A stretch of DNA of 64,000 nucleotides from Actinoallomurus soli (GTDB taxonomy: Bacteria > Actinomycetota > Actinomycetes > Streptosporangiales > Streptosporangiaceae): assembly GCF_024055715.1 (NCBI RefSeq), contig NZ_JAMXMV010000014.1, positions 1-64,000 on the forward strand, in the 5' to 3' direction. The notes below the pieces were generated by a model. That model ran no database searches. It had not been told where the DNA came from and worked only from the letters and a program-made list of their open reading frames with translations. Made by a program: the position numbers and the translations under genes. Of this stretch, positions 25,176 through 44,976 are shown piece after piece; positions within the stretch are counted from its first letter, which is position 1, and each line of letters begins with the position of its first letter.

Positions 25176-26477
25176 GTGCCGCGGAGCAATATCCCTTACG
25201 TGGCGAGGCTCCGCGAGCAGGTCGGCGACCTGCTCGCGGACCGGGTTGCGGTCGGCGTGCTGATCCGGGCCTTTCCGCCAGAACTCGTCGATCGCGTCGT
25301 GGACCGGCTCGGCGTGCGGGAGCAGCGCATGCGCGCGCTGCCGGCCCGGCTGATGGTCTACTACGTGCTGACCATGGTCATGTTCTTCCGGTCGGGTTAC
25401 GGCGAGGTCTGGGACAAGCTCGTCTCGGGGCTGGCCTGGGCGTACCCGTTCACCGCCGAGCCTCCGCGCGAGATGCGGCCGACTCCGGCCGCGATCACCT
25501 ATGCCCGCAAGAGACTCGGCTCGCAGGTGATGGCCGCGTTGGTGGAGGAGGCCGCCGGGCCGCAGGTGCGGGAGGAGCCCGGGCATGTGCGCGTCGGCGG
25601 GATGCGGCTCGTGGCCCTGGACGAGGCGCCGCTGAGCCTGCCGAATACGCCCGGGAACGTCAGCGTGTTCGGCTACCCGCCCGGCGGTTCTGAGCCGGAC
25701 CCGGTCCCGCAGGCCCGCGTCGTGGCGCTCGGCGAGTGCGGGACGTCGGCGATTCTCGGCGCGGGCGTTTTCGGCGCGGCCTTCGACGAGACAGCGCTGA
25801 TCCGGGAGCTCCTGCGGAAGCTGGATCCCGGTGACCTGCTCCTGTTCGGCGGCATCCTGCCCGCCTATGACCTGCTGGGGGAGGTGATCGCCGCCGGGGC
25901 GCACGTGTTGTGGCAGGCGGGGCCGGAGGACGACCTGCCCAGGCTGAGCACGCTTCCCGACGGCACCTACCTGTCCCGCCTCGCCGGCCCGGCCGCCCGG
26001 CCCGGCTCCGGCGGCGCCCCCGGCCTCGCGGTCCGGGTCATCCCCGATGCCGGCGAAGGCCCGCCGGCCGCGGGGAGGCCGGGGAAGCCCCTCCTCGTGA
26101 CCGACATCCTCGACGCCAGGGTGCTGCCCGCGGAGGCGTGCGTCGCGGCGCATGCCTCCCGCTGGCGTCTCGGGGACTGCTTCAGCACGCTCGACCTTCT
26201 GCCTCCCGGAGGGTCGGCGGTGACGCTCCGGTCCAGGGATCCCGACCTGATCCGCCAAGAAGTGCACGCCATCCTGTGCTGCTATCAGGCGGTGCGGCTC
26301 CTTGTCAGCCGTCGTCCGAACGGCCAGACCGTTCCCGCGGCGATTTCCCATCAACCGGCAGAGGCCCGAAGATCGGCTCGCGCATTACCCGCCTGGGCGC
26401 CCGGAGCCGTCGTCGGGCTGGCCCGGGACGTGAGACGTAGGCGATTGTCCGGCCGAGCCGGCCCTCCTGAGACGTAG
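25176..26477 (+). mobile_element. IS4-family transposase lacking catalytic residues
   Basis: 433 residues from GTG 25176. The N-terminal IS4 domain is clear (FPPELVDRVVDRLGVREQRM, LPARLMVYYVLTMVMFFRSG) and the DDE domain starts with VALDEAPLSLPNTPGNVSVFG, retaining the first Asp (D149). The second Asp, normally LLADRGF, is LLFGGIL (Gly225), and the third acid in RWxxE is RWRLGDCF. The C-terminal LRSRDPDLIRQEVHAILCCY is normal. The frame is intact, which suggests either a slowly decaying or a repurposed transposase. No clear terminal inverted repeats were found. Confidence 0.75.
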
Positions 26478-27033: not shown

Positions 27034-28182
27034 ATGACATCGTCCAGGACTGCAGCACACAGGCCTATCACCGAACCGAACGTGGAAATGCGCCTTCCGG
27101 TGCGCAGTTCGGCAGCGGGAGCCGCCGAACGAGAAGGGCCGACCATGCTCCCCGCGCCCGATCAGGACGTGCACACCGTTCCGCTGAGCGAGCTTTTGCC
27201 GGCCGACTCGCCGCGGCTTGCCGGGGAAGATGAGAATCACACCCGCCGGCTGGTCGAGGCCGAGGCCGAGTTGCCGCCCATCCTCGTGCACCGCAGCACT
27301 ATGCGGGTGATCGACGGCATGCACCGCCTCCGCGCCGCGATGGCCAGCGGCAGGCAGGAGATCCGGGTTCGATTCTTCGAAGGCGACGAGAACGAAGCAT
27401 TTCTACACGCCGTCAGGGAGAACGTCACTCACGGACTCCCGCTCAGCCTGGACGACCGGAGGCGCGCCGCCCAGCGGATCATCGCCGCCAGCCCCGACCT
27501 TTCCGATCGCGCGATCGCCGGTTACACCGGGCTGTCCGACAAGACGGTCAGTGCCATCAGAAAACGCTCAAACGCGGAAAATCCGCAGTCGAGCAAGCGC
27601 ATCGGCGTCGATGGCCGCGCCCGCCCGCTCAACAGCACCGAGGGCAGACGGCGCGCCGTGGAATTCCTCACCGCCCGCCCGGACGCCTCTCTGCGGGAGA
27701 TCGCCGCCGGCGCCGGCATCTCGGTCGGAACCGCCCATGACGTCCGCAAGCAGATGCAGCGTGGGGAAGACCCCATCCGCTCGCGCCGGCCCAGCGCCGA
27801 CCCGGACCGCGCAACGTCCCCCGGGCCCGGCCAGGTCGTCACCGCCCGGCGCCCCGCCCGGCGCCCCGCCCCCGACGTCACCGGCTTCGATCCCGGGTCA
27901 CTGCTGGAGAGCTTCGTCCATGACCCCGCGATCCGGCAGTCGGAATCCGGCCGGGGCATGCTCCGCTGGCTGCACGACCACGTGGTCCGCGGGGCCGACG
28001 TCAACCAGCTCATCGAAGCGGTTCCTCCCCACCGCGCCGACTGTCTCATCACCCTCGCCGAGCACTGCGCCGGGGTATGGCGTTCCATAGCCGACCGGCT
28101 CGCGGCGGATCAGACCTCCCAGTCGCCCGGACGCCGTCTGACCGGCCATCCCGCCGAACCATCAGCACGCCCAGAACCCTGA
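27034..28182 (+). CDS. StrR-like pathway regulator with ParB N-terminal domain
   Basis: 382 residues from ATG 27034 (GGAGAG upstream; ATG 27145 is an alternative). Residues about 45-140 form a ParB-like nuclease domain: VHTVPLSELLPADSPRLAGE, ELPPILVHRSTMRVIDGMHR, FLHAVRENVTHGLPLS. A helix-turn-helix follows (AGYTGLSDKTVSAIRKR, 160-177) and a second possible one (REIAAGAGISVGTAHDVRKQ, 218-237). This is the architecture of StrR/NovG/TeiR2-type activators of antibiotic clusters rather than of chromosome-segregation ParB. It lies 279 nt upstream of the enediyne operon in the same direction and is its probable activator. No perfect StrR-type palindrome was found. Confidence 0.8.
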   Translation: MTSSRTAAHRPITEPNVEMRLPVRSSAAGAAEREGPTMLPAPDQDVHTVPLSELLPADSPRLAGEDENHTRRLVEAEAELPPILVHRSTMRVIDGMHRLRAAMASGRQEIRVRFFEGDENEAFLHAVRENVTHGLPLSLDDRRRAAQRIIAASPDLSDRAIAGYTGLSDKTVSAIRKRSNAENPQSSKRIGVDGRARPLNSTEGRRRAVEFLTARPDASLREIAAGAGISVGTAHDVRKQMQRGEDPIRSRRPSADPDRATSPGPGQVVTARRPARRPAPDVTGFDPGSLLESFVHDPAIRQSESGRGMLRWLHDHVVRGADVNQLIEAVPPHRADCLITLAEHCAGVWRSIADRLAADQTSQSPGRRLTGHPAEPSARPEP

Positions 28183-28461: not shown

Positions 28462-29541
28462 ATGACTTTCGCTACGGGGCGTGCTCTCCATAAGATGCTG
28501 GCGCCGCCATCGACCGAGGTGACCTTTCTCGTGCGCGGCTTCCACGTCGGGCAGCCGCAGGCTCGCGACTATCTGGAGCAGGTCGGCCGCTGGTTCCTCG
28601 TCGGCCTGGAATACGGCATGACCGTGCGGGGAGAGCGCGAGGTCGCGACGCGTCTGGAAACGGTTCCCCCGGAGTACCGTGGTTTCGCCTATGAGGGCGC
28701 CTCGATGGCGCTGGCGATCCTTGACGGTCTTCTTCCGGGAGCCGGGGGGCGGCTGCACAGGTTCATCGCCGGCCCGGCGGCGCACCAGATCTACACCGCA
28801 CACGTCGGGGCGGGCTGGGCGCTGGCCCGTCTGCCGCGCCCGCTGCGCCCTCGGGTCCGGCTCAGGGATCCGTTGCTGCGCTGGCTGGCCCTCGACGGAT
28901 ACGGGTTCCACGAAGCCTATTTCCGGACTCCGCTCGTCGTAGGCGAGCAACGCCGGCCTCGGATCCTCCGCGGCCACCCAGGGGACGCCCGTGACGCCGC
29001 GCACGTCGTCGACCAGGGGATAGGCCGGGCCCTGTGGTTCGTCTGCGGGGCCGACGCCGCTCACCTGGCCGGCACGATCGCGGGCTTCGCCCCCGACCGG
29101 CAGCCGGACCTGTGGGCCGGCGCGGGCCTGGCCGCGGCGTACGCCGGTCAGCAGAGCGCGGCCGGCCCGGCCGGTGGGGAGGACCCGGCCGCGAGGCAGG
29201 CGGTCGAGGCATCGCTGCGGGAGTTGGCCGCCTGCGCCGGCCGCCACCTGCCGGATGTAGCCCAGGGTGCGGCTTTCGCGGCCAAGGCCCGGTATCAGGC
29301 GGGGCTGGTCACCCCCCTCACCGCCACCGCGGTGCGGGTGCTGTGCGGGATGGAGGTCGCGGAGGCGGCGCGATGGACCGATGACGCCCGGCCTGCCGAC
29401 CCGGCGGCCGGAGACGCCTATCAGGCATGGCGCCTCCGGATCCGCGGGCGCTTCACGCGTGAGCCTTCCCATCCCCGTCGAGATGGTCAGAGGTCCGGCG
29501 GTCCTGGGTTCCGGACAGAAAGGTTCGCGGGAGAGAAGTGA
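28462..29541 (+). CDS. Enediyne biosynthesis protein E3 (DUF1702/UnbL family)
   Basis: 359 residues, ATG 28462, AAGGGA upstream. The family signature YRGFAYEGASMALAILDGL sits near 72, with TAHVGAGWALARLPRP near 113 and LDGYGFHEAYF near 144. DUF1702 proteins occur almost only in enediyne clusters and form the first gene of the conserved E3-E4-E5-E-E10 cassette; they are needed for enediyne core formation but their chemistry is unknown. Length is normal. GTGA overlap with E4. Starts the core operon. Confidence 0.9.
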   Translation: MTFATGRALHKMLAPPSTEVTFLVRGFHVGQPQARDYLEQVGRWFLVGLEYGMTVRGEREVATRLETVPPEYRGFAYEGASMALAILDGLLPGAGGRLHRFIAGPAAHQIYTAHVGAGWALARLPRPLRPRVRLRDPLLRWLALDGYGFHEAYFRTPLVVGEQRRPRILRGHPGDARDAAHVVDQGIGRALWFVCGADAAHLAGTIAGFAPDRQPDLWAGAGLAAAYAGQQSAAGPAGGEDPAARQAVEASLRELAACAGRHLPDVAQGAAFAAKARYQAGLVTPLTATAVRVLCGMEVAEAARWTDDARPADPAAGDAYQAWRLRIRGRFTREPSHPRRDGQRSGGPGFRTERFAGEK

Positions 29542-31499
29542 ACATAAGAAAGCTCGCACCGCCGGCCGTCGTGCTCGCGCTGATCGGGGTGCTGTTGCCG
29601 CTGGCGCAACCACGCGGAGCGTCAGCCCGGCAGCAGGCAGCCGTGGTCTCGCGATATCACTTCACGCAATTGCCCATCGCCGAACCGCCGGGCCTACCGA
29701 ACGCCACGATCCGGGACGTCAACCCGGCCTACCGGCGCATTCAGGCGTGGATCTCGTCGGTGGGCGCCGCGGTCGCGATCAACGACTTCACCGGCAGCGG
29801 CCGGCCCGACGACATGTGCCTGGTCGATACCCGGAACGATTCGGTGATCGTCACTCCGGTGCCGGGCACGCAAGCCGTCGGGACCTTCGCGCCATTCGTG
29901 CTCAGCCCGTCCCCGGCGCTGCCCTACGACACGTCCACCATGGCCCCGATGGGCTGCGTTCCCGGCGACTACAACCAGGACGGACTGACCGATCTGCTGG
30001 TGTATTACTGGGGCCGGACTCCGGTGCTCTACCTGCTCAAGCGGGAGGCGAAGCAGCTGTCCGCGTCGGCCTACCGGCCGACCGAGGTCGTCCCGCACCA
30101 GCCCGGCCCGGGAGGCCGCTACACGGGCCCGCTCTGGAACACCAACGCGGTGGCCGTGGCGGATCTCGACGGCGACGGCCACCAGGACATCGTCATCGGC
30201 AATTACTTCCCGGACTCTCCGGTCCTCGGGTCGCACTCCCGGGGCAAGGTGGTCATGCCCGAAGGGTTCTCCCGTGCCACGAACGGCGGCGGCGACCTCG
30301 TCCTCCGGTGGGACGGCGCCACCGCGACCGGGGCGCCGAGGTACGCCGAGGCCCGCGACCCGTTCCCGAAGGGTTCGGCGACCGGCTGGACGCTGGCCGC
30401 GGCGGCGGCGGACCTGGACGGCTCGATGATCCCGGACCTGTACGTGGCCAACGACTTCGGCCACGACCACCTGTTCGTCAACAGGTCCGAGCCCGGGCAC
30501 ATCCGGTTCACCGAGGCGAAGGGCTGGCGGTCACCGGTCGTGCCGAAGTCCAAGGTCCTCGGCAACGGCTCGTTCAAGGGCATGGGCGTCGACTTCGCCG
30601 ACCTGACCGGCAACGGCAGGCTCGACATGGTGGTCAGCAACATCACCACCTCGTTCGGCCTCGAAGAGAGCAACTTCACGTGGATGAACACGTCGAGCAG
30701 CCAGGCCCAGATGCGTCGCGACCTGCTCCGGGGGAACGCCGACTTCACCGACAGGAGCTGGCCCATGGGCCTGGCCCAGAACGGGTGGTCGTGGGACGTC
30801 AAGGCCGGGGACTTCGCCAATCGCGGTACCCAGGACGTCGTACAGACGGCCGGCTTCGTGAAGGGCACGGTCAACCGCTGGGCGCAGTTGCAAGAGCTCG
30901 CGACGACGAACGACAACTTCCTCTCCAACCCGGTGTACTGGCCCAACATCGAGGCGGGCGACGACGTGGCCGGACACCAGTGCCCGGCGTTCTTCGCCCC
31001 GGGACAGGGCGGCCGCTACGTCGACCTCAGTGGCCCGCTGGGTCTGTGCGTGCGCACCCCGACGCGCGGGATCAGCATGGCCGACACTCGTGCCAACGGG
31101 GCGCTCGACCTCGCGGTCGCCCGTCAGTGGGGGCCGCCGGCGTTCTACCAGAACGACGCTCCCCATCTCGGTGAATACCTCGACCTGCGGCTCTTCCGCC
31201 CGGTGCCGGGGCAGCGGGCACCGCTCCAGGCGGCGGGTACGCCGGCCATCGGAGCGACGGTCACCGTACGGACCTCCTCGGGCAAGACCATGATCGCCCA
31301 GGTCGACGGCGGCAGCGGGCACTCGGGCAAGAACGACTTCGGCCTGCACTTCGGGCTGGGCGAGTCCGGCGCTCCGGTGGCCGCGACGGTGACCTGGCGG
31401 GACACGAACGGCCAGGTCCACCGCGAGACGACCCGTATCACCCCCGGCAGCCACACGCTCCTACTCGACTCGACCATTCATGAGGTACCGGCGCGATGA
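29538..31499 (+). CDS. Enediyne biosynthesis protein E4 (UnbV, ASPIC/CRTAC1 family)
   Basis: 653 residues from GTG 29538 with a signal peptide (APPAVVLALIGVLLPLAQPR, ending GASA), so it is exported. FG-GAP/VCBS calcium-binding repeats occur at DYNQDGLTDLLVYYW, DLDGDGHQDIVIGNYFPDS, DLDGSMIPDLYVANDFG and DLTGNGRLDMVVSN, making a beta-propeller. The C-terminal ASPIC/UnbV domain is about 560-653 (GATVTVRTSSGKTMIAQVDG, NDFGLHFGLGESG). Second gene of the enediyne cassette; essential in known systems, mechanism unresolved. ATGA overlap with E5. Confidence 0.9.
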   Translation: MNIRKLAPPAVVLALIGVLLPLAQPRGASARQQAAVVSRYHFTQLPIAEPPGLPNATIRDVNPAYRRIQAWISSVGAAVAINDFTGSGRPDDMCLVDTRNDSVIVTPVPGTQAVGTFAPFVLSPSPALPYDTSTMAPMGCVPGDYNQDGLTDLLVYYWGRTPVLYLLKREAKQLSASAYRPTEVVPHQPGPGGRYTGPLWNTNAVAVADLDGDGHQDIVIGNYFPDSPVLGSHSRGKVVMPEGFSRATNGGGDLVLRWDGATATGAPRYAEARDPFPKGSATGWTLAAAAADLDGSMIPDLYVANDFGHDHLFVNRSEPGHIRFTEAKGWRSPVVPKSKVLGNGSFKGMGVDFADLTGNGRLDMVVSNITTSFGLEESNFTWMNTSSSQAQMRRDLLRGNADFTDRSWPMGLAQNGWSWDVKAGDFANRGTQDVVQTAGFVKGTVNRWAQLQELATTNDNFLSNPVYWPNIEAGDDVAGHQCPAFFAPGQGGRYVDLSGPLGLCVRTPTRGISMADTRANGALDLAVARQWGPPAFYQNDAPHLGEYLDLRLFRPVPGQRAPLQAAGTPAIGATVTVRTSSGKTMIAQVDGGSGHSGKNDFGLHFGLGESGAPVAATVTWRDTNGQVHRETTRITPGSHTLLLDSTIHEVPAR

Positions 31500-32524
31500 C
31501 ATCACTCCGCGGAAAAAGCTCGCGTACGCCGGCCCGGCCGGCCGGCCAGGAGCCGCCGAAGGACGTCCCTCAGGACCCGCCGGAGGGCGTCCGTCCGAAG
31601 CCGCCGAAGGACGTCCGGATCGCGGCCCTGCGCAGGTTCGCGATCTCGATCACCGTGTTCAACATCATCGGCTACCTGTTGCTCGGGTTCGAACAGCCCT
31701 GGCTGTGGCCGTTCATGGCGGTGGGCACCGCCTACGCCACCGAGATCCTGGTGGAGGCGGTCACGGCGTGGGCCCACCGCCGGCCCCCCGCCTACCGGGG
31801 GCACGGGCTGAGGGGGCTGGTCGACTACCTGCTGCCCGCGCACATCACCGGCCTCGCCGTGAACATGCTCCTGTACGCCAACGCGCAAGCGTGGCTGGTG
31901 GTCTTCGCGGTCGTGGTGGCCGTCGGCCAGAAGGCGATCCTGCGCGCCCCGATCAAGGGGAAGTCGCGGCACTTCATGAACCCGTCGAACTTCGGCATCG
32001 CGGTGGCGCTGCTGCTGTTCTCGTGGGTCAGCATCGCGCCGCCGTACGAGTTCACGGAGAACACGGGGGCGGTGCTGGACTGGCTCATCCCGGTCCTCAT
32101 CCTGGCGTCGGGGACGATGCTGAACGCCCAGCTCACCAAGAAGATGCCACTGATCGGCGGGCTGGTGCTGGCGTTCGCGGCCCAGGCCGTGTTCCGGGCC
32201 GCCGTGTTCGGGATCGCCTGGCGGCCCGCGCTGCTGATGATGACGGGAACGGCGTTCGTGCTGTGGCTCAACTACATGGTCACCGACCCGGGCACCACCC
32301 CCGTCAGGCCGCGCGACCAGGTCATGTTCGGCGCGTCGGTGGGTGTCATCTACGGCGTCCTGATGGCGCTGCACATCGTGTACGGCCTGTTCTTCGCGCT
32401 GGTCGTCGTCTGCGCCGTCCGCGGCGCCTACCACTGGGGCAAGGCGCTGCCGGCCGCGCGGCGGCTGCGGCGCGAGTCCGCGCCGCCCGTCCAGGTCGCG
32501 GCCACCGTGGCCGAGGCCAGGTGA
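31496..32524 (+). CDS. Enediyne biosynthesis protein E5 (UnbU, NqrB/RnfD-like membrane protein)
   Basis: 342 residues. After a basic/Pro-rich N-terminus (1-40), about eight to nine membrane helices follow, e.g. FNIIGYLLLGFEQPWLWPFM and VDYLLPAHITGLAVNMLLYA, with the polar signature GKSRHFMNPSNFGIAVALLL near 157 and LNYMVTDPGTTPVRPRDQVM near 257 that resembles flavin/ubiquinone sites of NqrB/RnfD. UnbU proteins are a fixed member of the enediyne cassette and are thought to move electrons across the membrane. Ends 4 nt before the PKS start. Confidence 0.9.
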   Translation: MTSLRGKSSRTPARPAGQEPPKDVPQDPPEGVRPKPPKDVRIAALRRFAISITVFNIIGYLLLGFEQPWLWPFMAVGTAYATEILVEAVTAWAHRRPPAYRGHGLRGLVDYLLPAHITGLAVNMLLYANAQAWLVVFAVVVAVGQKAILRAPIKGKSRHFMNPSNFGIAVALLLFSWVSIAPPYEFTENTGAVLDWLIPVLILASGTMLNAQLTKKMPLIGGLVLAFAAQAVFRAAVFGIAWRPALLMMTGTAFVLWLNYMVTDPGTTPVRPRDQVMFGASVGVIYGVLMALHIVYGLFFALVVVCAVRGAYHWGKALPAARRLRRESAPPVQVAATVAEAR

Positions 32525-32528
32525 CGAC

Positions 32529-35500
32529 ATGGGGCAACGGATCGCGATCATCGGACTGGCGTGCGAGTACCCGGATGCCTCCTCGCCCGCCCAGCTGTGG
32601 GAGAACGTACTGGCGCAGCGCCGGGCGTTCCGCCGCCTACCGGACGAGCGGCTGAGCCGCGCGGACTACTACTGGCCCGATCCGGATGCCGGCGACCGGT
32701 TCTACACGGACATGGCCGCGGTCATCGAGGGCTATGAGTTCGACCGGGTCGGCTTCCGGGTCGGCGGCAGCACGTACCGGTCCACCGACCTCACTCACTG
32801 GCTGGCCCTGGACGTCGCATCCCGGGCGCTCGCCGACGCGGGATTCCCCGGCGGCGCGGGCCTGCCCGCTCTGACCACGGGCGTCATCGTGGGCAACACC
32901 CTGACGGGTGAGTTCAGCCGGGCGAACCTCATGCGCCTGCGCTGGCCGTACGTCCGGCGGACCGTCGCGGCGGCGCTGCGCGCGGAAGGCTTCGACGACC
33001 GCCGGCTGGAAGGCTTCCTGGCCGGCCTTGAGCGGCAGTACAAGGCTCCGTTCCCCGAGGTGGGTGAGGACACCCTGGCCGGTGGGCTGTCGAACACCAT
33101 CGCCGGGCGCATCAGCAACCACTTCGACCTGCGGGGCGGCGCCTACACCGTCGACGGTGCCTGCTCCTCGTCCCTGCTGGCGGTGGTGACCGCGTGCACG
33201 GCGCTGGCCGACCACGAGATCGACGTCGCGGTCGTCGGCGGGGTCGACCTGAGCATCGACCCGTTCGAGCTGATCGGTTTCGCCAAGGTCGGCGCGCTGA
33301 CGCCGGGGGAGATGCGGGTGTTCGACCAGCGCAGCTCCGGTTTCCTGCCCGGCGAAGGCGCCGCGATGGCGGTGCTCGTACGCGAGGAGGACGCGACCGG
33401 CGGCTACGCGGTGATCGAGGGCTGGGGGAGGTCGTCCGACGGCCGCGGCGGGATCACCCGCCCGACCGTCGACGGCTACCGGCTGGCGATGCGCCGCGCG
33501 TACGAGCGGGCCGGGTTCGGCCCGGACACGGTCGGCTACTTCGAAGGGCACAGCACCGGCACGCCGACCGGCGACCAGGTCGAGCTCGAGGCCATCTCGG
33601 CGGAACGCGACGCCGCCGATCCGCAGGCGCCGCCGGCCCCCATCGGCAGCATCAAGGCCCTCATCGGGCACACCAAGGCCGCCTGCGGCATCGCGAGTCT
33701 CATCAAGGCCACGCTGGCGGTCCGGGACGGCATCATCCCGCCCACCGCGGGCTGCGTGGACCCGCACGACGTGCTGCTGCGGGACCGCCCGGCACTGCGC
33801 GCCTCGGCCGGCGAGCCGTGGCCGTCCGGGCGGCCGCGCCGGGCGGGCGTCACCTCGATGGGCTTCGGCGGGATCAACACGCACGTGGTCATCGGGCAGG
33901 CCCGCGACCGCCGTACCGATGAGGCGCGGTCGGTCGCGCTGCTGGCCTCGGCGCAGGACCGGGAACTGCTGCTGGCGGACGCCGACGAGCCCGCGGAGCT
34001 GCGGGAGACGCTGCTGCGGCTGGCGGACTCCGTCTCCGCCCTGTCCTTCGCCGAGATGGGGGACCTGGCCGCCGTCCTGCACGACGGATATCGCGGGCGG
34101 CCGCTGCGGGCCGCCATCGTCGCCGGGCACCCGGTCCGGGCGGCGGAAGCGCTTCGGCGGGCCACCGACGCACTGGGGGAGGGGCGCGAATCGCTGTTCG
34201 ACCCCGATGCCGGTGTCTTCCTCGGCCGGGTCACCGGCCCGGTCAAGACCGGGCTCCTCTTCCCGGGGCAGGGCTCCATCCGGGGCTCCCGGCACGGTCA
34301 CAGCGCCGCCCGCGGCCGCTTCCGCGCCGTGCTCGACTCGTGGCCGATGCCCGACGGGGACCCCGTCGACACCGCCGTGGCCCAGCCCCGGATCGTCGCC
34401 GCCTCGCTGGCCGCCGTACGCGTCCTGTCGGCCCTCGGGATCGAGGCGGAGGTCGCGGTGGGGCACAGTGTGGGCGAGCTCGCGGCCCTCGCCTGGGCCG
34501 GGGCGGTCGACGAGGCCGCGGCGCTGCGGATCGCGACCGTGCGGGGACGCATCATGGCGGGCCTCGGCAGCGGGGGAGCGATGGCGGGCCTCGCCGCGGC
34601 GCCGGACCGGGTGACGCCGCTGCTGGCCGGCGATCCCGTGGTGATCGCGGCGCTGAACGGCCCCGGCCAGACGGTCGTGTCCGGGCCCGCCGACGCGGTG
34701 GACCGGGTCGCCGTACGGGCCCGGCAGTCGGGCATCGAGTGCACGCGCCTCCGCGTGTCGCACGCCTTCCACTCACCGCTGGTGGCGCCCGCCGCCGCCC
34801 CGCTGGCCGAACACGTACGGGACCAGGAGTTCCGGCCGCTCCGCGGCCGGGTCATCTCGACCGTGACCGGCCAGGAGCTCGCGCCCGGCACCGATCTGGT
34901 CCGGCTGCTGACCGAGCAGGTCACCGCCCCGGTTCGGTTCGGACCGGCGGTCGCGGCCGCGGCCCGCGACGTCGGCCTGTTCATCGAGGCCGGGTCGGGT
35001 TCGACGCTGAGCGGGCTGGCCGCGGGCAACGCCGGTGTTCCGGCGCTGAGCATGGATCTCGACGCACCGTCACTGGCCCCCCTGCTGAGGGTCGTGGCGG
35101 CCGCGGTGGTCCTCGGGGTCCCGGTCCGTACCGAGGCGCTGTGGAACGGCCGGTTCACCCGGCCGTTCCGGCTCGGCGCGCCGCTGCGGTTCTTCGCCAA
35201 TCCGTGCGAGTCCACCCCGGACCTCGACCTGCCCGCCGCCCCGGTCGTGCCGCGTGACCGCGGCGAGGCCGAGCCCCGGAACGACGCGTCCGGGAACGAG
35301 GCCGGCGCGACCGAGGACAGCGCGATCGAGCGGCTGCGGAGACTGACGGCCCAGCGGGCGGAGCTCCCGCTCGAGGTGGTCCGCCCGGACACCAAGCCGC
35401 TGGACGACCTGCACCTCAGCTCCATCGTCGTCGGCCAGATCATGAACGAGGCGGCCGCCGAGCGCGGGCTGACCACGCTCGCCCCGGCCACCGGCTTCGC

Positions 35501-38261
35501 CACCGCCAGCCTGGCCGAGCTCGCCGAGGCGCTGGACGACCTGGCCGCGGCGGCGTCGCCGGGACAGGACGCGCGGCGTGACGCCGTGGAGGGGGCGGGA
35601 CCGTGGGTGCGCCCGTTCGCGGTCGCGTGGGTGCCCGCGGATCCGCTACCGCCGCGAGCGGACGCCGCCGCCGGCGGAACGGGCTCGTGGCAGGCGTTCG
35701 TCTCGCCCGGAGCCCCCGAGGCCGAGCGGCTCCGCCGTGCCCTGGAGACCGCGGGCATCGGTGACGGGGTGCTCATCTGCCCGTCGCCGGCGCGCGACAC
35801 GGCGGAGACCGGGATGCTGCTGGCGGGCGCCCGCGCCGCACTCGCCGGAGCCCGGCGCTGTCTCGTCGTCCAGAGCGGCGGCGGCGCCGCGGCCCTGGCC
35901 AAGACGCTGCACCTGGAGAACCCGGAGGTCGTCACCTGCGTGGTGAACGTCCCGGCCGGTCCCTTCCCCGTCGCCGCCGTCGTACGCGAGGCCGCCGCCG
36001 CGACCGGCTTCACCGAGGTGCGCCTCGACGAGCGCGGCCGGCGCAGCGTTCCCGTGCTGCGCCCCCACACGCCCAGGCCCGGCCCGCTGCCGCTCGGGCC
36101 CGAGGACGTCGTGCTCGTCACCGGCGGCGGCAAGGGCATCACGGCCGAGTGCGCGCGGGAGCTGGCCACCGGCACCGGCGCGAAGCTCGCGATCCTGGGC
36201 CGCTCCGATCCGGCGCGCGACGCCGCCCTCGCGGCCAACCTGGCGCGGCTGGAGGCCGTCGGCGTCGAGCACGCGTACTTCCCGGCGGACGTGACGTCGG
36301 AGGAGCAGGTCGCCGCCGCCGTGGCCGGCGCGCGCGAACGGCTGGGCGAGGTGACGGCGGTCCTGCACGGCGCCGGCCGCAACCGGCCGGCCGCGCTGAC
36401 CAACGCCGACGAGGCGTCGTTCCGCGCCACCGTGGCGCCCAAGGTCGACGGGCTGCGCGCCGTGCTCCGCGCGGTCGACCGCGGTCGGCTGCGGCTGCTC
36501 GTCACGTTCGGCAGCATCATCGGCCGGGCCGGCCTGCGCGGACAGGCGGAGTACGGGACGGCCAACGAATGGCTGACCGACCTGACCCTCGACCAGGCCC
36601 GCCGCCGCCCGGACTGCCGCTGCCTGGCCATCGAGTGGTCGGTGTGGTCGGGCGTGGGGATGGGCGAGCACCTCGGCGTCCTCGACGCCCTGGTACGCGA
36701 CGGCATCAGGCCGATCCCGCCCGACGAGGGCGTCAGGATGTTGCTGCGGCTGATCGCCGACCCCGGAGCCCCCGGCGTCACGGTGGTCGTCGGCCGCACC
36801 GGCGACCTGCCGACGGTCTCCTTCGAGGAACGGGAGCTGCCGCTGGCGCGGTTCACCGAGAATCCGCTGGTCTTCTACCCCTCGATCGAGCTGGTCGCCG
36901 AAGCCCGCCTCACCGAGCACGACGATCCGTACCTGGCCGACCATCAGGTGGACGGGGTGGCGATTCTGCCGGGCGTGCTGGCCCTGGAGGCGATGACCGA
37001 GGCGGCCGCCGCCGTCACCGCGTTGCCCAACCGGCCGGTCTGGGAGAACGTGGAATTCCTCCGGCCGGTGACGGCGGACGGAGACCTGACCGCCACGATC
37101 AGGATCGGTGCGGTGGTGCGGGAGGACGGGGATTCGGCCGACGTGGTGATCCGCAGCGCGGAGACCGACTTCGCCGCCGAGCACGTCCGCGGCACGTTCC
37201 GGCCCGGGCCGGTGCCCCCCGCCGGTGACGCGCCGACGCATCCGGCCGCCCGCCTGATCAAGGCAGGGGACTGGTACGGCCCCTTGTACTTCCAGGGCAG
37301 CCGGTTCCAGCGGGTCATCGGCTACCGGAAGCTCACGGCGACGGGCTGCGTGGCGGAGATCTCCGGAAGCCCGGACAAGCCGTGGTTCGGGCCGATGCTG
37401 CCCGCCAGACTGCTGCTCGCCGACCCCGGGCCCAGGGACGCCTTCATGCACGCGATCCAGGCGTGCGTGCCGGACGCGACGCTCCTGCCGGACCGGGTCG
37501 AGCGCCTGGTGCCCGCGACGGGCCTGTGGCCCGATCGGCTCTTCCTGGACGCCCGCGAGCGCAGCCATGACGGCGACAGCTATCTGTACGACCTCACGGT
37601 GTACGACGAGGCGGGCCGGGTCGTGGAAGAGTGGCAGGGACTACGGCTGCGGGCGCTGCGCCGCCATGGCCCTCCCGCGATCGCGGCTCTCATCGGGCCC
37701 TACCTTCAGCGGCGGCTGCCGGAGGGCGTCGGGGTGGCGGTCGAGCCGGAGGGCCACGATGAGCGCGCCGAGGCGACCCGCCGTGCCGTCAGTCGCGCGG
37801 TCGGCGCCGACGTGTTCGTACGACACCGTCCCGACGGACGGCCCGAGATCGAGCTGCAGGTGGGCTCCGGCCACGGGCCTGAGATCTCGGCGTCCCACGG
37901 CCCGGGGTTCGTGCTGGCCGTCGCCGGGAACGGTCCGCTCGGCTGCGACGCCGAGGAGGCCGTCGACCGTCCCTGGCCGCAGTTGCTCAAGGCCGGCCGG
38001 ATCACGCTGGCCGAACGGGCCGCGGCCGAACTCGGCGAGCCCCTGGCGGTCGCCGCCACGCGGGTGTGGGCGGCCACCGAGTGCCAGGTGAAGGCCGGCG
38101 GCTCTCCCACTGATCCGTTGAGTCTCATCGGATCGGCCGAGCCGGGGTCGCTGACGTTCGCCTCGGGCCGGGCGCGGATCGTCACGATCGCCACCGTCCT
38201 GAGCGGCGCCGAGCACCCTGTCGTGTTCGCCGTCCTCACCGGAGACGAGGGTCGCGCATGA
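32529..38261 (+). CDS. pksE: Iterative type I enediyne polyketide synthase (KS-AT-ACP-KR-DH-PPTase)
   Basis: 1910 residues, the usual PKSE length. KS: Cys212 in VDGACSSS, His in EGHSTGT and IGHTKAACG. AT: Ser647 in VGHSVGEL after FPGQGS. ACP: Ser965 in DLHLSSIVVGQ. KR: VLVTGGGKGITAEC near 1195. DH: His1472 in DHQVDGVAILPG. C-terminal integrated phosphopantetheinyl transferase: GCDAE (1805-1809) and WAATECQVK (1847-1855). This architecture is unique to enediyne PKSs, which build a linear polyene precursor on their own ACP and self-phosphopantetheinylate. All catalytic residues are intact. Overlaps E10 by 4 nt. Sequence alone does not decide between 9- and 10-membered cores. Confidence 0.97.
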   Translation: MGQRIAIIGLACEYPDASSPAQLWENVLAQRRAFRRLPDERLSRADYYWPDPDAGDRFYTDMAAVIEGYEFDRVGFRVGGSTYRSTDLTHWLALDVASRALADAGFPGGAGLPALTTGVIVGNTLTGEFSRANLMRLRWPYVRRTVAAALRAEGFDDRRLEGFLAGLERQYKAPFPEVGEDTLAGGLSNTIAGRISNHFDLRGGAYTVDGACSSSLLAVVTACTALADHEIDVAVVGGVDLSIDPFELIGFAKVGALTPGEMRVFDQRSSGFLPGEGAAMAVLVREEDATGGYAVIEGWGRSSDGRGGITRPTVDGYRLAMRRAYERAGFGPDTVGYFEGHSTGTPTGDQVELEAISAERDAADPQAPPAPIGSIKALIGHTKAACGIASLIKATLAVRDGIIPPTAGCVDPHDVLLRDRPALRASAGEPWPSGRPRRAGVTSMGFGGINTHVVIGQARDRRTDEARSVALLASAQDRELLLADADEPAELRETLLRLADSVSALSFAEMGDLAAVLHDGYRGRPLRAAIVAGHPVRAAEALRRATDALGEGRESLFDPDAGVFLGRVTGPVKTGLLFPGQGSIRGSRHGHSAARGRFRAVLDSWPMPDGDPVDTAVAQPRIVAASLAAVRVLSALGIEAEVAVGHSVGELAALAWAGAVDEAAALRIATVRGRIMAGLGSGGAMAGLAAAPDRVTPLLAGDPVVIAALNGPGQTVVSGPADAVDRVAVRARQSGIECTRLRVSHAFHSPLVAPAAAPLAEHVRDQEFRPLRGRVISTVTGQELAPGTDLVRLLTEQVTAPVRFGPAVAAAARDVGLFIEAGSGSTLSGLAAGNAGVPALSMDLDAPSLAPLLRVVAAAVVLGVPVRTEALWNGRFTRPFRLGAPLRFFANPCESTPDLDLPAAPVVPRDRGEAEPRNDASGNEAGATEDSAIERLRRLTAQRAELPLEVVRPDTKPLDDLHLSSIVVGQIMNEAAAERGLTTLAPATGFATASLAELAEALDDLAAAASPGQDARRDAVEGAGPWVRPFAVAWVPADPLPPRADAAAGGTGSWQAFVSPGAPEAERLRRALETAGIGDGVLICPSPARDTAETGMLLAGARAALAGARRCLVVQSGGGAAALAKTLHLENPEVVTCVVNVPAGPFPVAAVVREAAAATGFTEVRLDERGRRSVPVLRPHTPRPGPLPLGPEDVVLVTGGGKGITAECARELATGTGAKLAILGRSDPARDAALAANLARLEAVGVEHAYFPADVTSEEQVAAAVAGARERLGEVTAVLHGAGRNRPAALTNADEASFRATVAPKVDGLRAVLRAVDRGRLRLLVTFGSIIGRAGLRGQAEYGTANEWLTDLTLDQARRRPDCRCLAIEWSVWSGVGMGEHLGVLDALVRDGIRPIPPDEGVRMLLRLIADPGAPGVTVVVGRTGDLPTVSFEERELPLARFTENPLVFYPSIELVAEARLTEHDDPYLADHQVDGVAILPGVLALEAMTEAAAAVTALPNRPVWENVEFLRPVTADGDLTATIRIGAVVREDGDSADVVIRSAETDFAAEHVRGTFRPGPVPPAGDAPTHPAARLIKAGDWYGPLYFQGSRFQRVIGYRKLTATGCVAEISGSPDKPWFGPMLPARLLLADPGPRDAFMHAIQACVPDATLLPDRVERLVPATGLWPDRLFLDARERSHDGDSYLYDLTVYDEAGRVVEEWQGLRLRALRRHGPPAIAALIGPYLQRRLPEGVGVAVEPEGHDERAEATRRAVSRAVGADVFVRHRPDGRPEIELQVGSGHGPEISASHGPGFVLAVAGNGPLGCDAEEAVDRPWPQLLKAGRITLAERAAAELGEPLAVAATRVWAATECQVKAGGSPTDPLSLIGSAEPGSLTFASGRARIVTIATVLSGAEHPVVFAVLTGDEGRA

Positions 38262-38692
38262 CGCCCTACTTCGAGTACCGCCACGTCGTCGGGCTGGACG
38301 AGACCAACGTCGTGGGGAACGTCTACTACGCGCACTTCGCCCGCTGGCAGGGCCGGTGCCGGGAACTCTTCCTCCGGGAGCGTGTGCCCGGGCTGCTCGC
38401 CGAGCTCGGCGACGGCCTGAAGATCTTCACGCTCACCTGCTCATGTGAGTATCTCGCCGAGGTGTTCGCGTTCGACGAGATCGCCGTACGGATGCGGCTC
38501 GCCGAACTGACCCAGACGCAGGTGGCCTTCACGTTCGAGTACGTGCGGGTGCGCGAGGAGGCGGAAGAGCTGGTGGCCAGGGGGCGGCAGCGCGTCCTGT
38601 GCATGCGGGCCGAGAACGGCGGGATGAAGCCGGCGCGCGTGCCGCCGGCCTTCCGCCGGGCCCTCACCCCGTTCCTGGCGCGGGTCGGCTGA
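38258..38692 (+). CDS. Enediyne hot-dog-fold thioesterase E10 (TEBC)
   Basis: 144 residues from ATG 38258. The opening YFEYRHVVGLDETNVVGNVY and ARWQGRCRELFLRERVP are near-diagnostic for SgcE10/DynE7-type thioesterases, which release the polyene from PKSE. Later conserved stretches are SCEYLAEVFAFDEIAVRMRL and RVLCMRAENGGMKPARVP. The catalytic Arg/Glu of the hot-dog fold fall in RWQGRCRE. TGATG overlap with the following flavin reductase gene. Confidence 0.95.
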   Translation: MTPYFEYRHVVGLDETNVVGNVYYAHFARWQGRCRELFLRERVPGLLAELGDGLKIFTLTCSCEYLAEVFAFDEIAVRMRLAELTQTQVAFTFEYVRVREEAEELVARGRQRVLCMRAENGGMKPARVPPAFRRALTPFLARVG

Positions 38693-39201
38693 TGGAGCAG
38701 CTCAGGCGCGCGATGGCGCAGCACGCGGCGGCGGTCGCCGTGGTGACCGGGCCGGGCCCGGTCGGGCTGACCGTGACCACGTTCACCTCGGCCAGCCTCG
38801 ATCCGCCGCTGGTGTCGTTCTTCGTGTCGCAGACGTCGACCACCTGGCCACGGCTGCGCGACGCCCGGGTGTTCGGGGGGAACGTGCTGGCCGCGGACCA
38901 GGCCGACATCGCCGACCGGTTCGCGCGCCGCGGCACCGATCGGTTCGGGCCGCACACGCGGTGGTGGAGCGGCCCCCTGGGCGTCCCGCTCATCGCCGGC
39001 ACCGCGTGCCACGTGGCCTGCGAACTGGACAGGGTCATGCCGGTCGGCGACCACTGGCTCGTCGTCGGCCTGGTCGTCCACGCGGAGGCCGGCGGCGTGC
39101 CGCCGCTGCTCCGCCACTCCCGCCAGTACGGCCGCTTCCAGGGCATCCGGCCACCGGCCGGCGAACCCGAGCCGGGCCCCGCGGCGACGCTGCTGCACTA
39201 G
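38692..39201 (+). CDS. Flavin reductase (E6-like)
   Basis: 169 residues from ATG 38692 (overlapping the E10 stop). Flavin-reductase fold: MAQHAAAVAVVTGPGPVGLT, VTTFTSASLDPPLVSFFVS, NVLAADQADIADRFARRG and the terminal HSRQYGRF. Supplies reduced FMN/FAD to two-component monooxygenases; SgcE6 in the C-1027 cluster does this. Here the likely clients are the acyl-CoA-dehydrogenase-fold monooxygenases at 42975 and 56168. Last gene of the core operon. Confidence 0.88.
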   Translation: MEQLRRAMAQHAAAVAVVTGPGPVGLTVTTFTSASLDPPLVSFFVSQTSTTWPRLRDARVFGGNVLAADQADIADRFARRGTDRFGPHTRWWSGPLGVPLIAGTACHVACELDRVMPVGDHWLVVGLVVHAEAGGVPPLLRHSRQYGRFQGIRPPAGEPEPGPAATLLH

Positions 39202-39443: not shown

Positions 39444-39974
39444 ATGATTCCCCGCATTGGCAGCAGGGTCGCTGCCGCGGTCGCCACTCTCGCCCTCGCC
39501 GGCGCCGGCGCCGTCGCGGCTCAGGTGCCGGCGAGCGCGTCCAGCTTCACCGCCACCTACCTCTGCAACGTCCCCGGCGCGGGCACCGAGACCTCGACGA
39601 TCAACGCTTCGCTGACGGCCTCGCCGAACCCGGCCACCTCCGGCTCGAAGGTCGGCTTCGCGCTGGACGTCACCAGCATCAGCGTGCCCGCGTCCGTGGC
39701 CATCAACTCCTGGAACGCCACGGCCGTCATCGAAGGCAGCGGCGCGGAGACCTCGGCGTTCACGGCCACCGCGTCCGGCGGCTCGGTCCCGGCCGGCCAG
39801 CCGATCAACAACGTGGACATGACCGGATCCTGGACGCCCTCCGCCTCCGGCACGGACAAGTTCCTGATCGGTGACATCACGATCAACATGGACGCCGCGT
39901 CGTACGGGAACGTGACCGTGTCCTGCACACCCAGCGGGTCCCGGCCGACCGCCGGGACCCTTACCGTCCGCTGA
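39444..39974 (+). CDS. Secreted small beta-rich protein of unknown function
   Basis: 176 residues, ATG 39444, AGGAAGG upstream. Signal peptide to about residue 33 (VATLALAGAGAVAAQVPASA, cut near SAS). The mature protein of about 143 residues is Ser/Thr/Ala/Gly-rich, has two Cys (YLCNVPGAG and VTVSCTPSGS) that could form one disulfide, and alternates beta strands like an immunoglobulin-type sandwich of the DUF6801 sort. It follows the enediyne core operon after a 242-nt promoter gap. It is not recognisably homologous to the neocarzinostatin/C-1027 apoprotein family, though size, export and composition are similar. Possible drug-binding or surface protein. Confidence 0.6.
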   Translation: MIPRIGSRVAAAVATLALAGAGAVAAQVPASASSFTATYLCNVPGAGTETSTINASLTASPNPATSGSKVGFALDVTSISVPASVAINSWNATAVIEGSGAETSAFTATASGGSVPAGQPINNVDMTGSWTPSASGTDKFLIGDITINMDAASYGNVTVSCTPSGSRPTAGTLTVR

Positions 39975-39990
39975 GCCGCCACCGCTGACC

Positions 39991-40024
39991 GATTCCCCGG
40001 CCGGGCGCTCCCGGCCGGGGAATC
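39991..40024 (+). terminator. Perfect 15-bp hairpin terminator
   Basis: GATTCCCCGGCCGGG (39991-40005) pairs perfectly with CCCGGCCGGGGAATC (40010-40024) across a CGCT loop, 16 nt after the secreted-protein stop. It closes that monocistronic gene. Confidence 0.85.
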
Positions 40025-40213
40025 CGCCCAATCCGTGCCGTTCACTGCCGTGACGCCAGTTGATTCTCCGGTGGAGAGGCGATAATTCCTCAGCGTGATC
40101 GTTGAACATCCTTTACAAGGTCGAGCTCATCGATACAGCCTTTACGGACGCGAACTTATCGATCTCCTTCCGGACCGGCGGGGAGCCGGAGCCTCCAACC
40201 CCTGGATGTCATC

Positions 40214-41854
40214 ATGTCGAACACCGCCGCACGCCGGCAGACGCAGCAGTGGAACCGTTTTGAACATCCAGTCGCGTTCTGGCTGGGAGCCGCGGCCTGC
40301 ACCGCGGGCGTCGCATTGCATCTTCCGATGTATTACAGCGCGCGTGACATGGGGTACCGGATGGCCGGGATGCGGCCCGACGCCGAGATGCTGACCGGTA
40401 TGGCCCTGATCATCGGCGGACTCGCGGCGGCGCTGTACGGCCTGCTGCCGAGGGGGACGCGGGAGTTCCGGCAGGCCGCCGCCGGGATCCGGGTACGGGC
40501 GCTCGACGACGCTCCGATCCGGCCGCGGCACGTCGCAATGCTCCTGGTCATCTCGGTCGCGATCGTCATCGACGTGATGAAGCCGGCCGCGCTGGCGTTC
40601 GTCGCACCCGGAATGGCGAAGGAGTACGGGCTCAAAGCGGCAGGCAACCCGCACGGCCACATCCCGGTGGCACTGCTGCCGTTGTCGGGCATCAGCGGGA
40701 CCGTCCTCGGATCCTGGCTGTGGGGGTGGCTCGCCGACCGTATCGGACGCCGGTCGTCCATTCTCTACGCCGGGCTACTGTTCGTGACCACGTCCATCTG
40801 CGGTGCCATGCCCGGTTTCAATTGGAACCTGCTCATGTGCTTTCTCATGGGCATCGGCGCGGGCGGCATGCTGCCCATCACCTTCGCCCTGCTGGCCGAG
40901 ACCATTCCGGCCCGTCACCGCAGCTGGATCATGGTCTTCATCGGCGGCGGCGTATCGGGTGCCGGTTATGTGCTGACGAGCTGGCTGGCGGGCGCGCTGA
41001 CCCCGCACTACAGCTGGCGCATCCTCTGGTTGATCGGACTGCCCACCGGGGTTCTCTTCATCGCGCTGAGCCACTGGATTCCAGAGTCCCCGCGGTTCCT
41101 CCTCGCGGTCGGACGCCGGAAAGACGCCGAGACGATAATGGCGCAGTTCGGTGCCGCGGTCGTCGAGGAGACGGACGACACCGAGGCGGCCGACGATCGG
41201 GGCGGCGGATTCCGCCGGCTGTTCGGCTCGCCGCTCATCGGTTCGAGCGTGGCGATCAGCATTCTGGCGCTGGGAGTGGGACTCATCACCTACGGCTTCC
41301 AGCTCTGGATTCCCACGAACCTTCAGCATCTCGGTTACACCACGGTCAACTCGGACTACATCGTCCGGAACGCCGCGCTCATCGGGCTTCCGATCGGCCT
41401 GCTGGCCACGGCCATGTACGGTTTCTGGAGCAGCAAGAAGACCATCATCGCGTTCTTCGGGCTGCTGGCGCTGGCCCTGTTCGGATTCGTCCTGGCCGGC
41501 GACTCGCTCGCGCATGATCATGTTCTCCTCACCGCGTTGCTGGTCGTCCCGCTCTCCGGGACCAGCCTGGTGGCGGCGCTCATCACGGTCTACGCGTCCG
41601 AGGTGTACCCGACGCGGATCCGGTCCCGGGGCACCGGGCTGGCCGCCGGGATCACCAAGGCGGGAGGCGTGCTGATCATCGTCATGGTCGTCGCCGCGGC
41701 CACCCCGCCGTCGATCGCGGTGACCGCGATCATCGGGGCCGCGCCGCTGCTGATCGGCATGGCCGTCTTCGCGCTCACCAGTCATGAGACGCGTAGCAGG
41801 CGGCTGGAGGAGATCAGTCACGCCGAGTCCGTGGCGGCGTCCGCGCGGCCCTGA
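40214..41854 (+). CDS. MFS transporter with an extra N-terminal helix pair
   Basis: 546 residues from ATG 40214. Two extra helices (FWLGAAACTAGVALHLPMYY and MLTGMALIIGGLAAALYGLL) precede a 12-helix MFS core. Motif A is WGWLADRIGRRSSILYAGLL; PESPRFLLAVGRRKDAETIM after helix 6 is the sugar-porter/metabolite:H+ symporter signature. A cytoplasmic loop ends EETDDTEAADDRGGGFRRLF. In this setting it is likely an exporter or precursor transporter. Transcribed alone; a shared bidirectional terminator separates it from the convergent gene. Confidence 0.8.
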   Translation: MSNTAARRQTQQWNRFEHPVAFWLGAAACTAGVALHLPMYYSARDMGYRMAGMRPDAEMLTGMALIIGGLAAALYGLLPRGTREFRQAAAGIRVRALDDAPIRPRHVAMLLVISVAIVIDVMKPAALAFVAPGMAKEYGLKAAGNPHGHIPVALLPLSGISGTVLGSWLWGWLADRIGRRSSILYAGLLFVTTSICGAMPGFNWNLLMCFLMGIGAGGMLPITFALLAETIPARHRSWIMVFIGGGVSGAGYVLTSWLAGALTPHYSWRILWLIGLPTGVLFIALSHWIPESPRFLLAVGRRKDAETIMAQFGAAVVEETDDTEAADDRGGGFRRLFGSPLIGSSVAISILALGVGLITYGFQLWIPTNLQHLGYTTVNSDYIVRNAALIGLPIGLLATAMYGFWSSKKTIIAFFGLLALALFGFVLAGDSLAHDHVLLTALLVVPLSGTSLVAALITVYASEVYPTRIRSRGTGLAAGITKAGGVLIIVMVVAAATPPSIAVTAIIGAAPLLIGMAVFALTSHETRSRRLEEISHAESVAASARP

Positions 41855-44204: not shown

Positions 44205-44322
44205 CCGGCCGGTCGTCCCGCGTCGGTGGTCGTCGGGTCCCGGTGCGCCGGCGGTCGTGGCGCGGCTGAAAGGATCGCGGGTGGAATATCATTATCAAGC
44301 GATTCCACCGGAGGTCACGGTC

Positions 44323-44976
44323 GTGAAGCATCAACGCCGCAACTACGGCCAGTACTGTGGCCTCGCCGCCAGTCTCGACCTCATCGGCGAGCGCTGGACG
44401 CTCCTGATCATTCGGGAGCTCCTGGCCGGGCCCTGCCGCTACAACGTGCTGCTGGCCAACCTGCCGGGCATCGGCACCAACCTGCTGGCCGACCGGCTGA
44501 AGTTCCTCACCGAGTGCGGGATCATCCGCCAGCGGGCCCGTGAGGGCTCGAAACTCCGAGACTACGAGCTGACCGAGCAGGGAGAGGGTCTGCGCGAGGC
44601 GGTGCTCGCCCTGGCCCGTTGGGGTCTGGGCACGCTCGAGCAGCCCGCTCCCGGCGACATCGTGCGCCCCCGGTGGGCGGCGCTCGCCATCGAGGCGATG
44701 ATCGATCCGAGTGCGGCAGGACCTGACGAGCAGTACGAGTTCCGCATCGACGACGAGGTCTTCCACGTGAGCGTGCTCGACGGCCAGGTGACGGTCGCCC
44801 AGGGGAAGGCCACCACCGAGCACGCGCTCACGCTCACTACGGATTCGCTCACCTTCGTAAAGATCGGCGCCGGGTTGCTGAACCCACTGGAAGCCACGCT
44901 GACCAACCACCTCGTCATCGACGGGGACGAGGACGCGATCGTCCGCTGCTCGCGCCTGCTCGGCCTGATGGCTTAG
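44323..44976 (+). CDS. HxlR-family transcriptional regulator with SCP2-like C-terminal domain
   Basis: About 217 residues from GTG 44323 (GGAGG 8 nt upstream; an earlier ATG at 44257 lacks a site). Residues 1-105 are an HxlR winged helix: QYCGLAASLDLIGERWTLLI, ELLAGPCRYNVLLANLPGIG, TNLLADRLKFLTECGIIRQR and DYELTEQGEGLREAV. The C-terminal about 100 residues (EYEFRIDDEVFHVSVLDGQV) look like the SCP2-type fold seen in some HxlR members. HxlR proteins sense quinones, aldehydes or electrophiles, which would fit an enediyne producer. It may control the ACTA-N8-AAAGT promoters. Confidence 0.85.
   Translation: MKHQRRNYGQYCGLAASLDLIGERWTLLIIRELLAGPCRYNVLLANLPGIGTNLLADRLKFLTECGIIRQRAREGSKLRDYELTEQGEGLREAVLALARWGLGTLEQPAPGDIVRPRWAALAIEAMIDPSAAGPDEQYEFRIDDEVFHVSVLDGQVTVAQGKATTEHALTLTTDSLTFVKIGAGLLNPLEATLTNHLVIDGDEDAIVRCSRLLGLMA

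Follow-up and report, generated by a model that had tools for sequence, protein, structure and literature searches.

The 64,000-nucleotide stretch of Actinoallomurus soli analyzed here (positions 1 to 64,000 of contig NZ_JAMXMV010000014.1, assembly GCF_024055715.1; hereafter the window) encodes a complete enediyne core cassette, centered on an iterative enediyne polyketide synthase (PKSE), together with a long run of accessory genes (Table 1). In such cassettes the PKSE builds a polyene bound to its acyl carrier protein (ACP), E10 releases the polyene, and E3, E4 and E5 help form the enediyne core. We propose, with a probability of roughly three in four, that the contig (205 kb, in a 9.42-Mb draft genome of 60 contigs) carries an intact cluster for an uncharacterized enediyne, most likely ten-membered, whose core and accessory genes have different histories. 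Bounded by DNA conservation with a second genome, G247 (compared genomes and their contigs are cited in the form G247:C6), this cluster covers 25.2-70.8 kb of the contig, or about 46 kb; beyond 64 kb it adds two genes of unknown kind and a class I/II aminotransferase.

All five genes of the enediyne cassette concept (E3/E4/E5/E/E10; Yan et al. 2016, PMC5181780) are present together, and the cassette is genuine rather than a chance assembly. Open reading frame (ORF) coordinates give four-base overlaps at E3/E4, E4/E5 and PKSE/E10 and a four-base gap between E5 and PKSE. Together with Pfam profiles and matches of E10 to solved structures (SgcE10, E = 3e-53; CalE7, 4e-50; DynE7, 3e-41), they bear out the ordered, near-contiguous cassette of the first-pass annotation. 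Pfam recognizes ketoacyl synthase, acyl transferase, ketoreductase (KR) and dehydratase (DH) domains in PKSE, and a residue check covering the ketosynthase (KS), acyltransferase (AT), ACP, DH and phosphopantetheinyl transferase (PPTase) sites located each residue earlier described as intact in its expected motif: C212 in DGACSS, S647 in GHSVGE, S965 in LHLSSI, H1472 in HxxxGxxxxP, and CDAE at 1806. The only DUF1702 gene in the whole host genome is E3 by both position and tree. The flavin reductase gene after E10 had been described as E6-like; it is not an E6 ortholog, since its product is 36% identical to SgcE6 over 113 amino acids and falls in a tree clade with its counterpart from G044, apart from SgcE6. 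Its true start is probably later than annotated, at about 38698, because an ORF beginning at 38599 would share 94 bases with E10.

PKSE trees are a usual way to sort enediyne clusters. Among 49 PKSEs, that of the window pairs with the enzyme of G044 (support 100; 59-61% identity), and the pair forms its own branch in a 43-row half holding C-1027 and other clusters with nine-membered genes, apart from five dynemicin- and esperamicin-like (dyn/esp-like) PKSEs (100) and the long-branch G312. Split or cut PKSEs (e.g. G278, Mg1 and short stretches of the G069 type) were included here only when 1200 or more residues aligned. The E10 tree yields the same pair (99/87; bootstrap not settled), and in G044 the E10, major facilitator superfamily (MFS) and flavin reductase genes stand side by side, adjoining PKSE. 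In the E4 and E5 trees the window stands alone near mixed groups and does not pair with G044. Because E4 and E5 of G006, G267, G246:C4 and G077 likewise separate from their own PKSEs in the trees, core genes may be shuffled more widely.

This phylogeny, suggested as a check in the first-pass annotation, thus revealed no tight clustering with any of the 48 other PKSEs compared: the best match, at 61%, is the uncharacterized G044, far under the 90% identity cut-off for a PKSE clade given by Yan et al. 2016 (PMC5181780). With DynE7 as query, the best match was 62% in 345 genomes of the order and 61% in 394 of the class, and these genomes therefore supplied no dynemicin reference. A PKSE scan of the genome_contigs collection gave a single, spurious match of 19 amino acids. 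The earlier suggestion of an undescribed enediyne type stands insofar as the PKSE is far from all 48 compared, a sample without the named dynemicin, esperamicin, calicheamicin, kedarcidin and maduropeptin PKSEs. The product's type need not be left open, as it was in that suggestion, because the accessory genes match clusters lacking the nine-membered set.

These accessory genes have close relatives of their own. Compared with G247:C6 by blastn, the window's contig shows blocks of 78-85% identity over 25.2-29.5 and 41.9-70.8 kb (one block, at 65.7-66.5 kb, is 71%), 68-71% over 29.7-38.6 kb, and nothing over 38.7-41.9 kb. At the protein level, G247:C6 has 24 of 24 accessory genes at 69-90% identity and E3 at 82%, as against 52% for E4, 56% for E5, 53% for PKSE, 60% for E10 and 34% for the flavin reductase. 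Nothing in 80 kb of G247 matches the ORF at 39557 or the MFS gene at 40214, and a weak ORF at 65783 has a 53% match in that genome. The block at 41.9-49.2 kb has the opposite orientation to the remainder, and E3 and E4, which overlap by four bases in the window, lie about 110 bases apart in G247. Identity at fourfold sites is 58-87% outside the core and 51-57% in E4, E5, PKSE and E10. A merely fast-evolving core in the window is ruled out, since the divergence extends to fourfold sites and the same PKSE lineage is found in G044. The E3 tree places the window with G247 (99); the PKSE tree sets G247 apart from the window and G044 (100), and E4, E5, E6 and E10 of G247 are 58, 63, 60 and 72% identical to those of C-1027.

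Two further genomes, G016 and G246, carry 17 and 15 of the 24 accessory genes, respectively (at least 45% identity and 80% coverage), so the neighborhood first described as unusual is not unique: it recurs nearly gene for gene in G247 and in good part in these two. Both lack orthologs of the HsaA-like, cysteine-desulfurase-like, IS4, MFS63680, CMD60316 and g66802 genes; G246 also lacks the P450, MDMPI and MT57888 genes, and G016 the PhnB gene. In G016 the cluster is divided between two contigs, C5 and C33, each of which stops inside it; their genes complement one another and follow the arrangement of G246:C16. G016:C5 and G246:C16 have sister PKSEs (100), which lie deep on the C-1027 side and represent a third core type. 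A tree of three accessory proteins (HxlR, UbiB and hyp45005, a 243-amino-acid protein without a family), restricted to the 14 clusters that have two or more of them, unites the window, G247, G016 and G246 (100/99), with G232/G249/G278/G289 (95/94) and then G038/G166 (100/100) as neighbors. UbiB alone also unites the four (99); with HxlR alone, they are not resolved from one another and three further rows.

Gene content points to the ring size of the product. According to PMC5181780, E2 marks nine-membered and R3 ten-membered clusters, a rule applied here through E2 only; the HxlR/SCP2 protein may be R3. As E3 is the genome's one DUF1702 gene, E2 is absent, and tblastn of C-1027 proteins against 1-104 kb of the contig confirmed the reported lack of E2, E7, E8, E9 and E11: E8, E9 and E11 had no match, E2 matched E3 only, and E7 aligned with nothing but part of the P450 at 50.1 kb (29%). 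The gene at 41938-42837 was considered as E11 and rejected (TIGR03084, 23.9 bits against a cut-off of 248). We compared markers across 22 clusters (23 rows) with at least 33 kb fetched, or with G016's two contigs combined. One or more of E7, E8, E9 and E11 are present in seven (E7 only in G311, three in G052, all four in the other five), and none of these seven has HxlR (at 70% coverage), hyp45005 or UbiB. The remaining 15 have full-length HxlR in 14 (the copy in the fifteenth, G289, is cut by the end of the stretch), UbiB in 14 (all but G312) and hyp45005 in 10. DUF1702 copies divide the clusters less cleanly: one in each of the 15 and, among the seven, two in five, one in SclavB and none in the short G052 contig. 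This split is a pattern and not a random sample, because clusters were chosen largely through related hits and several stretches span only 33-45 kb. In 80 chosen enediyne-bearing genomes, hyp45005 occurs in 22, at 24 places, 20 of them within 25 kb of a cassette gene (E5 or E10) on the same contig; the others are one about 133 kb away in G267 (G267:C2:391021-391704, cassette at C2:523879) and, on other contigs, one in G248 and two in G016. Since HxlR/SCP2, hyp45005 and UbiB are confined to the 15 clusters without E7, E8, E9 and E11, we predict with good confidence that the product is a ten-membered enediyne.

The closest known systems share different parts of the cluster. HxlR, hyp45005 and UbiB are held in common with dyn/esp-like clusters; in the esperamicin-like G232 and G249, the sister group in the accessory tree, they are 75-76, 57-60 and 57-58% identical to those of the window, whereas the PKSE is only 43-44% identical and belongs to another clade. 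Nothing in the 40 kb of G232 compared matches the second UnbV, DUF6073 or DszC-like genes of the window. E10 of G232 and G249 is 93 and 89% identical to PDB 5vpj, presumably from Actinomadura verrucosospora. Dynemicin, compared through DynE7 (2xem) and DynF (6ubl) only, shows 50% identity in E10, and the window's DUF6073 protein is remotely like DynF (E = 6.4e-4; profile, 6.6e-4), while the window's E10 and PKSE lie outside the dyn-like clade. A predicted model of the DUF6073 protein has a mean predicted local distance difference test (pLDDT) score of 45, too low for a fold search. The DynF ortholog Sgd15 is described as essential for sungeidine (PMC8725005). Calicheamicin, compared by E10 only (CalE7, 2w3x; 58%), falls to the window's side of the E10 tree, with its position there not settled; the closest E10 to CalE7 is that of G267 (77%). 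The uncharacterized G044:C96 has the closest PKSE, with 65% identity in E10, 60% in the flavin reductase, 58% in MFS and 57% in E3, but HxlR, UbiB and StrR are its only clear representatives of the accessory set.

Several observations count against a ten-membered product: ring size is read from gene content, the likeness to DynF is remote, and all four cores lie on the C-1027 side of the PKSE tree, which alone would favor a nine-membered ring. A nine-membered cluster with unusual accessory genes would accommodate the placement of PKSE, E4, E5 and E10 on that side, as well as the StrR-type regulator and the CMD protein shared with C-1027 (sgc, on plasmid SGLP1 of Streptomyces globisporus C-1027), to which the window is 52% identical in PKSE, 54-56% in E10, 39-44% in StrR-type proteins and 47% in one CMD protein. 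We nonetheless consider this unlikely. The C-1027 cluster has its own second DUF1702 gene, E7, E8, E9 and E11, none of which the window has, and lacks hyp45005, UbiB, a DUF6073/DynF-like gene and full-length HxlR (46 kb fetched), the first two and HxlR being found in none of the seven clusters with nine-membered genes; moreover, CalE7, which we take to belong to a ten-membered pathway, also sits, if without a settled position, on the C-1027 side in the E10 tree.

Taken together, the comparisons suggest that enediyne cores are exchanged like plug-in parts. In the window, G247, G016 and G246, the accessory set would have descended as a unit while recombination replaced the core on at least two occasions. 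The window and G247 provide the clearest case: their incongruence is evident, and recombination would have left one break at the E3-E4 boundary and another ahead of 41.9 kb. Two exchanges would suffice under either polarity: the window's core type may be ancestral, replaced from E4 onward in G247 and separately in the G016/G246 line, or the G016/G246 core may be ancestral, with the window type gained by the common ancestor of the window and G247 and then replaced from E4 onward in G247. Another exchange may have come even earlier, because the four fall among dyn/esp-like clusters in the accessory tree but not in the PKSE tree. In approximately unbiased (AU) tests, holding the window and G247 together was rejected for PKSE (p = 3.3e-5), as were holding all four clusters together (p = 1.5e-5 for PKSE, 4.6e-6 for E3) and forcing the four cores with the five dyn/esp-like PKSEs (1e-81). 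Some findings pull the other way: these p values are descriptive, because the groups were named after the identities had been seen; E3 alone separates window plus G247 from window plus G044 weakly (p = 0.034); the fourfold values overlap slightly, with two accessory genes at 57.8 and 58.4% and the flavin reductase at 64.5% (31 sites); and the window's E4 and E5 do not pair with those of G044, so its core may itself be a mosaic.

Transfer between clusters would be unnecessary if two cassettes had stood side by side in an ancestor and descendants had lost different ones. G016, G246 and G247 do each carry a second, separate enediyne cassette, but the stretches compared include no cluster with two adjacent cassettes, the second cassettes of G247 and G246 are not sisters of the core in question, and a break inside the E3-E4 overlap would not result from loss of a whole cassette; we regard this scenario as improbable. 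The second cassettes are also a possible source of the recombining cores. An IS4-type transposase gene lies beside StrR in both the window and G247:C6 (at about 224.6-225.8 kb; 80% nucleotide identity), possibly a clue to cluster movement.

That the cluster is silent, or yields a polyene-derived product other than an enediyne, appears quite improbable. In its favor, E5 homologs also occur outside actinomycetes, for example on plasmids of Sinorhizobium and Serratia; set against this are the five-gene cassette, its intact residues, and the 24 accessory genes kept at 69-90% identity in another genus. That the difference between the window and G247 is an assembly chimera is very improbable: both genomes are drafts (60 and about 60 contigs), but the junctions lie inside 205- and 506-kb contigs with frames intact, and a different core accompanying this accessory set is seen independently in G016 and G246.

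Core exchange beneath a conserved accessory set bears on how enediyne ring size arises. To our knowledge, what decides between the nine- and ten-membered fates of the PKSE polyene is not settled. PKSEs of both kinds of pathway can reportedly make the same polyene (Horsman and others), which would explain why exchange is tolerated. A more tentative proposal, which we hold as possible but rather doubtful, is that a ten-membered-type accessory chassis repeatedly receives core cassettes of differing descent, even of nine-membered lineage, such that one ten-membered product would come from both the window and G247, whose PKSEs are only 53% alike, with ring size set by the chassis and not by PKSE lineage. 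With the core changed and some two dozen accessory genes kept, comparing the products of the two living species would show which part decides. A PKSE tree alone can misplace a cluster's product, and we offer hyp45005, HxlR/SCP2 and UbiB as markers for sorting cryptic clusters. Among the titles and abstract openings listed from the open-licence literature, none reports such an exchange, a search mostly without subscription papers that does not show absence from print. The cassette itself is common in the host family, where 134 of 341 genomes have an E5 homolog (E <= 1e-20); the uncommon part is repeated core replacement under a conserved accessory set. That family also includes G153, whose enediyne region matches that of Nonomuraea gerenzanensis (NCBI family Streptosporangiaceae) at 99.99% identity over 18 kb, and the host is accordingly taken as an actinomycete of Streptosporangiaceae. 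The cluster type is rare, as only four of the 341 genomes carry the second UnbV gene (E <= 1e-90).

Within the accessory set, the DUF6073 protein, second UnbV protein, two flavin monooxygenases, P450, three methyltransferases and two aminotransferase-like enzymes would shape and decorate the core, with the monooxygenases probably fed by the flavin reductase; StrR- and HxlR-type proteins presumably regulate the cluster, and MFS proteins may export its product. The names of both monooxygenases, UbiB and the desulfurase denote resemblance and not function, because their NCBIfam matches fall below curated cut-offs. No glycosyltransferase family matched the genes scanned at 25.2-64.0 kb, Rfam and tRNA searches of the window gave no matches, and a profile of hyp45005 had no PDB match up to E = 1.

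Table 1. Genes of the enediyne cluster in the window (SAM, S-adenosylmethionine; identities are amino acid).
Feature	Coordinates	Strand	Evidence
IS4-type transposase (Nterm_IS4), left edge	25176..26477	+	69.7% in G247
StrR-type regulator	27034..28182	+	39% to C-1027 StrR-like regulator; 75% in G247
E3 (DUF1702), last gene before core break	28462..29541	+	Pfam DUF1702, 343.8 bits
E4 (FG-GAP/UnbV_ASPIC)	29538..31499	+	Pfam
E5 (NQR2/RnfD, UnbU-like)	31496..32524	+	Pfam, 30.6 bits (cut-off 27.7)
PKSE (KS-AT-ACP-KR-DH-PPTase)	32529..38261	+	Pfam, active-site motifs
E10 thioesterase (4HBT_2)	38258..38692	+	Pfam; match to solved structures
Flavin reductase (Flavin_Reduct), non-E6 clade	38599..39201	+	Pfam, tree
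ORF, no Pfam match or homolog in compared clusters	39557..40045	-	
MFS transporter going with core	40214..41854	+	58% in G044; no match in G247 stretch
MDMPI_N/SCP2 protein, mycothiol-dependent isomerase-like	41938..42837	-	71% in G247
DszC/SfnB-like flavin monooxygenase	42975..44204	+	Under curated cut-offs; 84% in G247
HxlR/SCP2 regulator	44257..44976	+	Marker of clusters without nine-membered set
hyp45005, 243 amino acids, no family	45005..45736	+	In 10/15 clusters without nine-membered set
Esterase (PF00756)	45844..46959	-	79% in G247
UbiB/AarF-type kinase	47031..48332	+	NCBIfam, under curated cut-off
SAM methyltransferase	48401..49219	+	85% in G247
PhnB/3-dmu-9_3-mt fold protein	49492..49974	+	69% in G247
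Cytochrome P450	50113..51360	-	85% in G247
SAM methyltransferase	51341..52084	-	75% in G247
DHA2-family MFS efflux protein	52344..53834	+	TIGR00711, 249 bits (cut-off 230)
Second FG-GAP/UnbV protein	53955..56102	+	Marker of cluster family
HsaA-like flavin monooxygenase	56159..57355	+	Under curated cut-off; 84% in G247
SAM methyltransferase (MT57888)	57888..58724	-	78% in G247 over 57% of length
DUF6073 protein, remotely DynF-like	58922..59665	-	PF19550, 267 bits
CMD/AhpD-type protein (CMD60316)	60316..60900	+	
CMD/AhpD-type protein	61568..62149	+	47% to one in C-1027 cluster
Class V aminotransferase/cysteine-desulfurase-like protein	62161..63618	+	NCBIfam, under curated cut-off
MFS-like gene start (MFS63680)	63680..64000 (63680-65197 on contig)	-	

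Other clusters met in the comparison show irregularities of their own. L085, a plasmid enediyne cluster of Streptomyces clavuligerus (pSCL4), has one DUF1702 gene, HxlR and UbiB homologs and no E7, E8, E9 or E11 in 41 kb, and its PKSE is nearest to that of a second S. clavuligerus cluster holding all four; it is possibly another mismatch of chassis and core. L051 (G323), L060 (G044), L061 (G269), L069 (G246) and L073 (G311) have E3-E5 or E4-E5 without a PKSE in the same 12-20 kb and appear to be rearranged or distant cassettes; in G044, G246:C4 and G311 a PKSE was found further away.

To the left of the cluster, and outside the stretch conserved in G247, a separate set of genes at 8497-21300 encodes dehydroquinate synthase-like (AroB-type), ROK/alcohol dehydrogenase fusion, HAD hydrolase, glycosyltransferase 2, two Gfo/Idh/MocA and sugar-isomerase-like proteins, and looks like a cyclitol-type pathway. 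Two overlapping frames at 21715-23363 share a glycosyl hydrolase family 10 gene between them (matching the profile at 3-167 and 187-310), an arrangement that we read as either a frameshifted gene or a sequencing error.

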